From: a virus
IMG/VR virus record: IMGVR_UViG_3300022746_000184
Location: 1 to 34,832 of that record
Length of the DNA stretch: 34,832 bases
Reading direction: 5' to 3' (one strand)
The translations under genes and the position numbers were made by a program. The notes beneath the pieces are model-generated. The model saw only the letters and a list, made by a program, of their open reading frames with translations, made no database searches and was not told where the DNA came from. Positions within the stretch are counted from its first letter, which is position 1, and each line of letters begins with the position of its first letter. Of this stretch, positions 26,283-29,226 are shown in pieces.

Positions 26283-26531
26283 ATGAAATCAGCATGGAAT
26301 TTTGTATTGAGGGTAGTTGCAGTATTTTTTATGTCTGCACTATCAACCATAGGTGCTGGGGCTATTCTACAAATAAACATTTTTAAGACTGCTTTACTTG
26401 CTGGTTTGGTTGGTTTGGCAAGAGTTGTTGAGGATATTGCTAGAGAATTTATTAATGATGGTGTTGTTAGTAAAAGAGATCTAGATAAAGTTCTTAAAAA
26501 TATTGCAGAAAATTATGACCAAAACCATTGA
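26283..26531 (+). CDS. Holin-like membrane protein
   Basis: 82 residues from the ATG at 26283. An in-frame start upstream at 26265 lies before the -10 box and cannot be used from this promoter. Two hydrophobic segments (about 8-29 and 33-48, GAILQINIFKTALLAGLVGLA) are followed by a charged C-terminal helix (SKRDLDKVLKNIAENYDQ), the arrangement of r1t-type actinophage holins. It should form membrane lesions that release an endolysin; the M23 peptidase at 29255 is the likely partner. Its TGA overlaps the next promoter's -35. Confidence 0.72.
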   Translation: MKSAWNFVLRVVAVFFMSALSTIGAGAILQINIFKTALLAGLVGLARVVEDIAREFINDGVVSKRDLDKVLKNIAENYDQNH

Positions 26532-26556
26532 CATTTCACCACTCCCCATATATAAT
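26528..26556 (+). promoter_or_regulatory. Perfect consensus sigma70 promoter
   Basis: TTGACA (26528-26533), 17 bases, TATAAT (26551-26556): full consensus at both hexamers and ideal spacing. Start expected near 26563, with GAAAGG before the ATG at 26584. It drives a very small protein and probably runs on to the tRNAs. Confidence 0.88.
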
Positions 26557-26774: not shown

Positions 26775-26845
26775 TGCCCTATAGTTAAAAGGCATAACGA
26801 GCGACTGTTAATCGCTGATTCTTGGTTCGAGTCCAGGTGGGGCAG
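26775..26845 (+). tRNA. tRNA-Asn (GTT)
   Basis: Acceptor TGCCCTA/TGGGGCA, anticodon stem AGCGA/TCGCT with loop CTGTTAA (anticodon GTT), T arm CTTGG TTCGAGT CCAGG, discriminator G. No encoded CCA. Confidence 0.9.
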
Positions 26846-27292
26846 CAATAGGGTGACTCCTATAGGTGTCGCTACAAACCATATTGTGGCTAGTTGTTAG
26901 TACTAACGAAAAACTAACAAGGCGTACCAAAGCCTGACCCCTTGTGTGGGGATTGGTGCTGTTACTCGCAGGTAGTTAGGTAAAGAGTCAGTGATGGATT
27001 ATCTAGTCAATAATCGCATCACACATTGGAAATAAGTGTTACGGTAGCACGGTGGTCTCCAAAACCATTAGCCTGGGTTCGACTCCCAGATTTCCTGCAA
27101 ACAGATCGGTGACGGCTGGTCTGGAGAATGGCTGAACGAAGTTCCTTGTCTAGATGGGACGAGAAAGGCACATGGCTGGGATTAGCGTCCCTGCTCTTAG
27201 CGGAGCAAGGTTATGGTAGGACTAAGGCGGTACTCTAATGGTGTATCTAGACTTCTCCTTGGTGGTAATAGACAATCCACCTTCTCATATTT
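26846..27292 (+). ncRNA. Candidate structured noncoding RNA around tRNA-Trp
   Basis: No ORF fits these two stretches (26846-27026 and 27098-27292), which flank tRNA-Trp. They are visibly more GC-rich than the phage average. Hairpins by eye in the first part: ATAGG/CCTAT (26848/26859), GCTACAA/TTGTGGC (26871/26884), TTGTTAGT/ACTAACAA (26894/26913), CCCC/GGGG (26938/26948), and a 12-bp stem with one bulge and seven-base loop CTAGTCA (26991-27022). The second part nests GGAGAA(27123)/TTCTCC(27253) outside GTCTAGAT(27148)/ATCTAGAC(27245), enclosing GGGACG/CGTCCC and TGCTC/GAGCA stems. Phage RNAs placed among tRNAs (GOLLD, ROOL) are a loose analogy in setting, not a sequence match. Could instead be two RNAs or processed tRNA leaders. 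Confidence 0.5.
27027..27097 (+). tRNA. tRNA-Trp (CCA), slightly degenerate
   Basis: D stem GTGT/GCAC, anticodon stem GTGGT/ACCAT with loop CTCCAAA (anticodon CCA), perfect T arm CTGGG TTCGACT CCCAG, discriminator G. The acceptor has six good pairs (GGAAAT/ATTTCC) but the first pair would be T-T, and position 8 is A rather than T. It may still function; the ends are uncertain by one base. Confidence 0.8.
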
Positions 27293-27363
27293 GCGAATAT
27301 AGTTTAGTGGTAAAACTTCTGCCTTCCAAGCAGATAATGGGAGTTCGATTCTCCCTATTCGCT
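27293..27363 (+). tRNA. tRNA-Gly (TCC)
   Basis: Acceptor GCGAATA/TATTCGC, anticodon stem TCTGC/GCAGA with loop CTTCCAA (TCC), T arm GGGAG TTCGATT CTCCC, discriminator T. A longer ORF from 27238 runs through this gene and its upstream part is not coding. Confidence 0.92.
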
Positions 27364-27381
27364 CAAATAGAAAAGGTAGTC

Positions 27382-28119
27382 ATGAAAGAACAAATAACTG
27401 TTAATTATATTAATGGAATAGAGAACAAAATGTTTGAAATAGTTCCATTAACTATGCAAAGAGAGTGGATGCATAAAAGTTTAAATAAGTTTGCTTATAA
27501 ATGTCTACCACTAGGAATTGCAAATCAGTATGGCTGGGTAGTCCTATCACCAGTTGATTTTTCTGTATCTTGGTATGGAGGAACTAAGCCAATAGATGTT
27601 GAAGTATTTTCAGAAGATGAACGTTTTAGAAAAGATATTTTTGGAGGTCACTTTGGAGAGTCTACCTTTACGGTTATTCCAGATTTTATCTTGCAAACAC
27701 CAGAGGGATATTCTACGTACATTCGTGGCATTCCAAATTATGAAAATAAATTCTTAAAACCACTAGATGCCATTGTAGAAACAGATTGGTTACCATTTAC
27801 TTTTACCTATAATTTTAAGTTTGTTGAGCCTGGAACTGTTGATTTCAAAAAAGGAGATCCTCTATTTTGCTTCTTTCCAATTGAAAGAAATACTGTAGAA
27901 AACTTTTCAATATTTGAACAAAATTTGGTAGACAATAAAATATTGTTTAATGATTTTAATGAATATGCAAAATCAAGACATGACTTTAACAAAAAGCGTC
28001 CAGTTGCAGGAGAAGTTCAAAAATTCTATATTAATGGACGTGGACCAAATAAAATATATTCTATAAAAAATCACATAAAACGCTTGTTTTTTAAAGAAGT
28101 AACTGATAGAATAGAATAA
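27382..28119 (+). CDS. DUF6065-like protein between tRNAs
   Basis: 245 residues from the ATG at 27382, with AAAAGG upstream; the frame extends to 27238 but that part is tRNA-Gly. The segment FAYKCLPLGIANQYGW (37-52), then VDFSVSWYGG, resembles the DUF6065 family as I recall it. A later part has IRGIPNYENKFLKPLDAIVETDW, and PFTFTYNFKFVEPG followed by KKGDPLFCFFPIERNTVE. The beta-rich pattern could be a cupin-like or jelly-roll fold. The function is unknown. It sits alone between tRNA-Gly and tRNA-Asp, so it may have arrived together with tRNAs. Confidence 0.7.
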   Translation: MKEQITVNYINGIENKMFEIVPLTMQREWMHKSLNKFAYKCLPLGIANQYGWVVLSPVDFSVSWYGGTKPIDVEVFSEDERFRKDIFGGHFGESTFTVIPDFILQTPEGYSTYIRGIPNYENKFLKPLDAIVETDWLPFTFTYNFKFVEPGTVDFKKGDPLFCFFPIERNTVENFSIFEQNLVDNKILFNDFNEYAKSRHDFNKKRPVAGEVQKFYINGRGPNKIYSIKNHIKRLFFKEVTDRIE

Positions 28120-28126
28120 TCAATAA

Positions 28127-28200
28127 GGTCTCATAGTTCAGTTGGTTAGAACGCCACCCTGTCACGGTGGAGGTCAGGGGTTCAAGTCCCCTTGGGATCG
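28127..28200 (+). tRNA. tRNA-Asp (GTC)
   Basis: Acceptor GGTCTCA/TGGGATC (two G-T pairs), anticodon stem CCACC/GGTGG with loop CTGTCAC (GTC), T arm GGGG TTCAAGT CCCC, discriminator G. Confidence 0.92.
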
Positions 28201-28204
28201 CTCA

Positions 28205-28278
28205 GGGAAATTAGTTCAGCGGATTAGAACGTTTGTCTACGGAACAAAAGGTCACAGGTTCGAATCCTGTATTTCCCA
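28205..28278 (+). tRNA. tRNA-Arg (ACG)
   Basis: Acceptor GGGAAAT/ATTTCCC, anticodon stem TTTGT/ACAAA with loop CTACGGA (ACG), T arm ACAGG TTCGAAT CCTGT, discriminator A. The A34 would need host TadA to become inosine and read CGN codons. Confidence 0.92.
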
Positions 28279-28296
28279 CAATAATTAAATAAACTT

Positions 28297-28384
28297 GGAA
28301 GATTGCCAGAGTGGACTAATGGAATAGTCTTGAAAACTATCAGGTGTAACAGCCTCAAGGGTTCGAATCCCTTATCTTCCTCCA
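28297..28384 (+). tRNA. tRNA-Ser (TGA)
   Basis: Acceptor GGAAGAT/ATCTTCC, anticodon stem ATAGT/ACTAT with loop CTTGAAA (TGA), long variable arm, T arm AAGGG TTCGAAT CCCTT. TCCA follows the acceptor, so CCA appears encoded; the discriminator T is unusual for Ser (usually G). Confidence 0.88.
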
Positions 28385-28385
28385 T

Positions 28386-28467
28386 TGGGGTACGCCGAAG
28401 TTGGAGATTCGGGGCGGTCTGTAAAACCGTTGCTAATGCTTAGTCAGTTCGAATCTGACTACCCCAA
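28386..28467 (+). tRNA. tRNA-Tyr (GTA)
   Basis: Acceptor TGGGGTA/TACCCCA, anticodon stem GCGGT/ACCGT with loop CTGTAAA (GTA), long variable arm, T arm GTCAG TTCGAAT CTGAC, discriminator A. Confidence 0.9.
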
Positions 28468-28472
28468 CAGTT

Positions 28473-28560
28473 GGAAATATGGCTGAGAGGCTTAAGGCAA
28501 GGGTTTGCTAAACCCTCGTAGGTAAAACTACCACAGGTTCGAATCCTGTTATTTCCGCCA
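28473..28560 (+). tRNA. tRNA-Ser (GCT)
   Basis: Acceptor GGAAATA/TATTTCC, anticodon stem AGGGT/ACCCT with loop TTGCTAA (GCT), long variable arm (GTAGG/CTACC), T arm ACAGG TTCGAAT CCTGT, discriminator G, CCA encoded. Confidence 0.92.
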
Positions 28561-28561
28561 T

Positions 28562-28633
28562 TTCCCTTTAGTGTAATTGGCAACACTTCAGTTTTTGGCA
28601 CTGACATTCTAGGTTCGAATCCTGGAGGGGAAG
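28562..28633 (+). tRNA. tRNA-Gln (TTG)
   Basis: Acceptor TTCCCTT/AGGGGAA, anticodon stem TCAGT/ACTGA with loop TTTTGGC (TTG), T arm CTAGG TTCGAAT CCTGG, discriminator G. Confidence 0.9.
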
Positions 28634-28643
28634 CAAGAGATAA

Positions 28644-28651
28644 GGTATAAT
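28644..28651 (+). promoter_or_regulatory. -10 element, leaderless HNH gene
   Basis: GGTATAAT with the hexamer at 28646-28651 and exactly six bases before the ATG at 28658. No ribosome-binding site. Confidence 0.65.
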
Positions 28652-28657
28652 AAATAT

Positions 28658-29092
28658 ATGTCACAAGTAGCGGTATATAATCAAGGCGGTACTGAACTGT
28701 TAATGACAGTATCAGTAAAGAAGGCGTTGACTATGCTCCATCGGGGTGTTGCTAGTGTATTAACGCCTACAGAGAAATCTGTGGGCTCTTTTATTATCCC
28801 AAAGGCTGTTCAATTAGTCAAATACATTTATGCAAGATGGAAATATGAAAATCGCAAAAACCAGTATTCAAAGAATGCTGTTTTAAGAAGAGATAATCAT
28901 ATATGTGCATATTGCAAAAAGAAGGCTATGACTATTGATCATATTATTCCAAGATGCCAGGATGGTCCATCCACATGGCTAAATACTGTTGCTTCTTGTA
29001 GAGAATGTAATCTTAAAAAGGGCGGTAGAACACCAGAACAAGCCCATATGAAACTTTTAATTAAACCATATAAACCACTTGACGGTAGATAG
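28658..29092 (+). CDS. HNH endonuclease
   Basis: A 144-residue protein. The C-terminal HNH nuclease has CAYC (Cys88, Cys91), MTIDHIIPRCQDGP (Asp-His of the first HNH His), WLNTVASC and CRECNLKKGG (second Cys pair and final Asn/Lys). A zinc-stabilised McrA-like HNH is clear. The N-terminal 55 residues (VAVYNQGGTELLMTVSVKKAL and on) probably bind DNA or form a beta domain. Possible roles are homing-type enzyme within the tRNA region or a packaging-associated nick enzyme. It sits between tRNA-Gln and tRNA-Thr with its own leaderless start, typical of a mobile or free-standing endonuclease. Confidence 0.88.
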   Translation: MSQVAVYNQGGTELLMTVSVKKALTMLHRGVASVLTPTEKSVGSFIIPKAVQLVKYIYARWKYENRKNQYSKNAVLRRDNHICAYCKKKAMTIDHIIPRCQDGPSTWLNTVASCRECNLKKGGRTPEQAHMKLLIKPYKPLDGR

Positions 29093-29107
29093 TGGTAATG
29101 CTATAAT
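29079..29107 (+). promoter_or_regulatory. Promoter for tRNA-Thr
   Basis: TTGACG (29079-29084), 17-base spacer, TATAAT (29102-29107). Start near 29114, three bases before tRNA-Thr. The -35 lies in the last codons of the HNH gene. Confidence 0.82.
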
Positions 29108-29116
29108 TAAATATAT

Positions 29117-29188
29117 GCCTCTATAGCACAGTGGTTAGTGCACCTGTCTTGTAAACAGGAAACCCCAGTTCGATTCTGGGTAGGGGCT
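29117..29188 (+). tRNA. tRNA-Thr (TGT)
   Basis: Acceptor GCCTCTA/TAGGGGC, anticodon stem CCTGT/ACAGG with loop CTTGTAA (TGT), T arm CCCAG TTCGATT CTGGG, discriminator T. It stands apart from the others, with its own promoter. Confidence 0.92.
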
Positions 29189-29226
29189 CTTAAGGTCATT
29201 CACAGAGTACGGATGATAATATTAAT

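Follow-up and report, generated by a model that had tools for sequence, protein, structure and literature searches.

The tRNA array of a viral contig raises the question of what fills the long gaps between its genes for tRNA-Asn, tRNA-Trp and tRNA-Gly. The window, that is, the whole stretch of DNA analysed, is this contig (34.8 kb). The original prediction placed here one structured non-coding RNA enclosing tRNA-Trp. Conservation and covariation bear out a structured non-coding RNA among the tRNAs. The region nevertheless holds two separate RNAs rather than one: the second (27104-27291) is manA, and the first (26847-27026), termed class F here, is a member of a previously uncatalogued RNA family, whose structure and context are well supported.

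The host of the phage is likely actinobacterial, because the small subunit of its ribonucleotide reductase shares 76-78% identity with the counterparts from Mycobacterium, Gordonia and Arthrobacter phages. ARAGORN detects ten tRNA genes in the window, spanning positions 26775-29189. Three of them, located on the plus strand as are the promoter-like site and the two RNAs, delimit the region: tRNA-Asn(GTT) at 26775-26846 (56.7 bits with the Rfam tRNA model), tRNA-Trp(CCA) at 27027-27098, which separates the two RNAs, and tRNA-Gly(TCC) at 27293-27364. The acceptor pair 1:72 of tRNA-Trp is U-U, marked as a mismatch by the Rfam alignment. Outside tRNA-Trp, the Asn-Trp gap measures 180 nt and the Trp-Gly gap 194 nt, in agreement with the approximately 380 noncoding nucleotides initially counted, and, as was also noted, both are richer in G+C (43.3% and 48.5%, respectively) than the window (37.4%). 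Neither gap contains a sizeable ORF, the longest stop-free run of the first being 23 codons, and no ORF is conserved in class F. Upstream of the array, the anticipated tRNA promoter corresponds to a sigma-70-type promoter-like site, TTGACA-17-TATAAT, at 26528-26556, assigned purely from its consensus match (12/12). Two protein-coding genes lie within the array: a DUF6065 gene following tRNA-Gly (27382-28119, E 1.6e-56), which adjoins tRNA genes also in the related contigs recovered with it, and an HNH endonuclease gene (28658-29092).

manA RNA in the Trp-Gly gap

The Trp-Gly gap contains a full-length manA RNA (RF01745) at 27104-27291, which scores 63.7 bits against the Rfam gathering cut-off of 55.2 bits and covers model positions 1-192 of 192. 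The same covariance search matched no Rfam family at 26847-27026, so that the expectation of a different, unlisted class holds for the first half of the region and fails for the second. As expected, the Rfam covariance models of GOLLD and ROOL have no match in either gap.

Two nested stems had been proposed in this half. The pairing GTCTAGAT/ATCTAGAC is real and represents a tertiary interaction of a hairpin loop with the 3' strand of manA. In relatives this loop pseudoknot is rewritten as GCCAGCAA/TTGTTGGC, AGTCAA/TTGACT, GGTC/GACC or GGTTA/TGACC, with only one of 500 shuffles as good. A 'pseudoknot?' drawn in manA in a 2010 paper (PMC2864571) may be the same pairing. The pairing of GGAGAA with a nearby TTCTCC was not retained: the manA model pairs GGAGA with UUCUC at the 3' end, and relatives keep only that pairing.

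The manA RNA is present in 13 of 50 related contigs, as well as in L222, and in those 13 it lies inside a tRNA array every time. Its 3' end is 0-1 nt from the next tRNA in ten of the 13 contigs and farther away in two, the remaining contig ending there; its start is 4-6 nt past the previous detected tRNA in nine. The longer gap upstream of manA in L132 is occupied by another structured element and a tRNA-like gene missed by ARAGORN. Similar placement is observed in two cyanophages. In S-CREM1 (OP535465, 9745-10643), tRNA-Leu, manA and tRNA-Asn follow each other without a spacer; wcaG and abiF RNAs are found in the same tRNA cluster. In ACG-2014f (KJ019037, ~129914-130272), unannotated tRNA-Arg and tRNA-Asn genes each lie one base from manA, and one of these tRNAs overlaps an annotated CDS start.

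The 2010 paper put manA forward as a cis-regulator on the basis of potential 5' UTRs, mainly in marine metagenome fragments (PMC2864571). The window copy does not have a 5'-UTR placement, since tRNA-Gly begins 1 nt downstream; this mismatch bears on the functional label of manA and not on its membership in the sequence family. The flush position of manA between tRNAs in S-CREM1 and ACG-2014f argues against the 'cis-regulatory' label in phages.

Class F RNA in the Asn-Trp gap

Class F RNA fills the Asn-Trp gap (26847-27026). It is not matched by the manA model even at E up to 5; blastn and nhmmer found no homologue of this half in 155 loci or 50,697 phage records, and an exact-pattern scan on the palindrome of helix P3 had no match. 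Homologues were obtained by reading the long gaps of related tRNA arrays and by pattern scans for the 3' hairpin. There are four, in other phage contigs, each filling the gap between two tRNAs: L277:6039-6219 (Trp-Gly slot), L222:2119-2303 (Asn-Met slot, followed by manA), L030:8772-8963 (Gly-Asp slot) and L071:8617-8801 (Asn-Asp slot). The copies in L277 and L222 adjoin other tRNAs, hence tRNA-Trp is not an enclosed part of the RNA.

A model of the 3' half of class F (R1), searched against ~1.2 Mb of loci and 50 whole records, recovers five class F members, the rest scoring at most 24 bits. The window copy, which is within the seed, scores 103.2 bits (E 3.8e-19) and lies flush between tRNA-Asn and tRNA-Trp. 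Class F is thus defined by five strict members, the window included. Several pattern matches were rejected: L227 is not reported by R1 at E up to 5; L296 and L298 are not reported at E up to 1 and lack tRNAs; L299, the sole bacterial match, scores 15 bits, lacks tRNAs and was taken as chance; and a match in ACG-2014g is inside a coding gene and was likewise attributed to chance. No description of these array elements was found in the open-access papers searched.

The 5'-terminal hairpin P1 (26848-26863) has the stem ATAGG/CCTAT and the loop GTGACT (26853-26858). It is followed by P2 (26871-26890, GCTACAA/TTGTGGC) and P3 (26894-26920), whose stem TTGTTAGT/ACTAACAA is the predicted 8-bp helix of 26894-26901 with 26913-26920. 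Three short hairpins come next: P4 (26921-26934, GGC/GCC with the loop GTACCAAA), P5 (26938-26951, CCCC/GGGG) and P6 (26959-26971, CTG/CAG). The 3'-terminal hairpin P8 (26991-27022) is present as predicted, with a seven-base loop, CTAGTCA (27003-27009), and a 12-bp stem in which the G at 27016 is bulged out.

A whole-length MAFFT alignment misaligned the 5' half of class F, and the 5' helices were therefore inspected one sequence at a time. The P1 stem is re-spelt among members as ATAGG/CCTAT, ATAGAC/GTTTAT, ATAAGG/CCTTGT, TGAGA/TCTCA and TGGAAT/ATTCCA. In the four sequences checked, P2, P3 and P5 are re-paired with different letters (for P5, TTGCA/TGCGA and GTGGGT/ACTCAC). Competition between P3 and P4 makes P3 uncertain in L071. 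Three of four pairs of P4 and two of three pairs of P6 are changed on both sides. In the 3' half, which includes P8, the covariation looked for in homologues was found as both-sided compensatory changes at eight of 19 pairs, with none of 500 shuffles as good. Paired letter cells there reach 100%, compared to 86.8% in shuffles, and the signal disappears once the partners are slid. Folding energy alone (z -1.87 and -1.19; overall range -0.1 to -3.7), which is unexceptional for the class F copy in the window, is weak evidence of structure; conservation and covariation carry the case, and chance folding is rejected on the covariation.

The terminal loops of class F are complementary to each other: loop 1 reads TGACT (26854-26858) and loop 8 reads AGTCA (27005-27009). 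A pseudoknot of loop 1 had been suggested with another AGTCA, at 26986. That partner is wrong, because relatives rewrite the kissing pair of 26854-26858 with 27005-27009 in a compensatory manner: TGACT/AGTCA in the window, L277 and L222, TAACT/GGTTA in L030, and TGAC/GTCA in L071. At the site of 26986, L030 retains GAGTC despite its loop TAACT, and L071 reads GGGC. In two further classes of array elements, C and E, the same two loop positions hold TAATC and GATTA, GATTG or GATTT. Over 15 elements of classes F, C and E, 73 of 75 loop 1/loop 8 positions pair, compared to 64.7 after re-dealing the 3' loops (p ~5e-5), although kinship among sequences inflates such a statistic and the seven-base loops were read by hand, because automatic picking failed for most 3' hairpins of classes C and E. 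Both-sided change is seen at three of five positions, the loops switch from one complementary set to another, and cross-class loop combinations form 3.9 and 3.4 of five pairs versus 4.9. These comparisons support well a co-evolution of the first and last hairpin loops of class F as pairing partners.

Other RNA classes in the tRNA slots

The slot after tRNA-Asn is occupied by class F in the window, L222 and L071, by manA in L030, L131, L135, L140 and L148, by class C in L126 and L125, by class D in L277 and L132, and by class E in L128. At least five RNA classes occupy the same tRNA slots in this phage group, and they look like exchangeable cassettes. Of 25 representative array elements other than tRNAs, 16 have a hairpin starting no more than 3 nt from the 5' end (6.4% in shuffles), and 15 have one that closes near the 3' end (12.7% in shuffles). 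In loci with classes B, C and D, the only Rfam matches were to tRNA and manA.

Class C (for example, L131:6868-7040; not in Rfam) resembles class F in occupying the same slots and in having end-to-end kissing hairpins and a similar stretch ahead of the last hairpin. It differs in an unalignable middle and in the loops, TAATCA/TGATTA in place of TGACT/AGTCA. Model R1 matches class C in L002 with E 0.03, and the class C model (R2) matches class F in L277 (E 0.3) and in the window (E 0.88), both exactly at the 3' end; E falls to 9e-4 when 701 bases are searched. Classes F and C look distantly related, the class C model matches in the full search being just under significance.

Two further classes are also absent from Rfam. 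Class B (~170 nt) is found in the Asp-Thr slots of many arrays (L118:7007-7175, L117:2344-2510, L131:7116-7284 and others), and the loop of its 5' hairpin (CTGAACA) and that of an internal hairpin (GTTCAG) are complementary. Class D (~190-217 nt; L121:15135-15351, L156:11390-11582, L277:5775-5966 and L137:5153 onward) has GTCGC in both terminal hairpin loops, which are not mutually complementary. A tRNA-like gene with an odd anticodon arm (ACTGCAAGGAACGGCAAGT), missed by ARAGORN, was found in L132:5452-5718 and L137:5153-5545, where it separates class D from the element that follows, which in L132 is manA. The Glu-Trp slots have A+T-rich gaps of ~210 nt (L121:14852-15061, L131:7436-7649, L148:1119-1332 and L156:11038-11237); these look like a promoter with a small ORF, and not a structured RNA, and could provide a second transcription start in the arrays.

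Proposed role and comparison with known systems

We propose, with a probability of roughly two thirds, that class F is a stand-alone RNA of ~180 nt with kissed ends, which is co-transcribed with the tRNAs, released by tRNA-processing enzymes and active in trans, and that manA is a second such cassette. Co-transcription, processing, stability and trans action of class F are what we infer from the sequence. A single transcript, starting at the promoter-like site at 26528, would carry both the tRNAs and the cassettes. RNase P cleavage at the 5' end of each tRNA would then generate the 3' ends of the cassettes, and trimming of the preceding tRNA would generate their 5' ends. The U-U first acceptor pair of tRNA-Trp might weaken the cleavage by RNase P. 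Because loop 1 kisses loop 8, the ends of class F would be capped and brought together, and the joined terminal hairpins could guard both ends of the RNA. The stable RNA thus released may act in trans during infection, and manA at 27104-27291 would be produced in the same way. Since the cassettes are placed flush with tRNAs, their release by tRNA-processing enzymes is directly testable.

It is unlikely that class F is instead a cis-acting leader or spacer controlling how the downstream tRNAs and the DUF6065 gene are transcribed or processed. The published proposal of manA as a cis-regulator and the presence of the DUF6065 gene after tRNA-Gly are consistent with such a role, but the tRNA directly downstream of class F varies among relatives (Trp, Gly, Met or Asp), manA is likewise flanked by tRNAs in actinophage-like contigs and the two cyanophages, and the 3' end shows no conserved terminator or start-site switch.

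The kiss could also be intermolecular, because GOLLD and ROOL, structured non-coding RNAs that are rich in kissing loops and often located near phage tRNA islands, build cages via kissing loops between molecules (PMC12286853). Loops 1 and 8 would then form head-to-tail homo-oligomers, such as rings or cages. Complementary end loops can pair within one molecule or between molecules, and the two are indistinguishable by sequence; with class F being only 1/4-1/3 of the size of GOLLD and ROOL and unrelated to them in sequence, we consider oligomers improbable. It is highly improbable that the gaps are debris, that is, tRNA genes that have decayed or scars left by recombination, their stems being due to chance, as might be suggested by the HNH endonuclease gene within the array and by odd tRNA-like sequences in some gaps of relatives, since this is contradicted by compensatory changes in the helices tested, and debris would not maintain the complementarity of both terminal loops.

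Under the preferred reading of class F and manA as released cassettes, phage tRNA arrays, usually seen as codon-usage aids, also carry several families of structured RNA, most of them absent from Rfam, and manA, long a riboswitch candidate, gains a different reading in phages. We speculate, as an improbable extension, that phage tRNA arrays serve in general to carry interchangeable RNA cassettes released by tRNA processing, of at least five structured families that are unrelated or barely related, manA included, and that classes F and C form head-to-tail rings or cages via their covarying kissing loops.

Among known RNAs, manA and class F are alike in their flush placement between tRNAs, similar length, 5'-terminal hairpin and loop pseudoknot; class F differs in its set of helices and conserved letters, and manA is filed as cis-regulatory. 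The stable RNAs C and D of phage T4 (species 1 and 2) are non-tRNA species made from the T4 tRNA transcript by tRNA-processing enzymes. The proposed class F RNA would resemble them, by description only, as a stable non-tRNA RNA derived from a tRNA transcript. GOLLD and ROOL share with class F a structured non-coding RNA near phage tRNAs with kissing loops. Class F differs from them in matching no Rfam model and in its length (~180 nt, compared to more than 800 nt in many GOLLD members); its covarying end-to-end kiss offers a small system in which to ask whether self-pairing RNAs beyond GOLLD and ROOL assemble.
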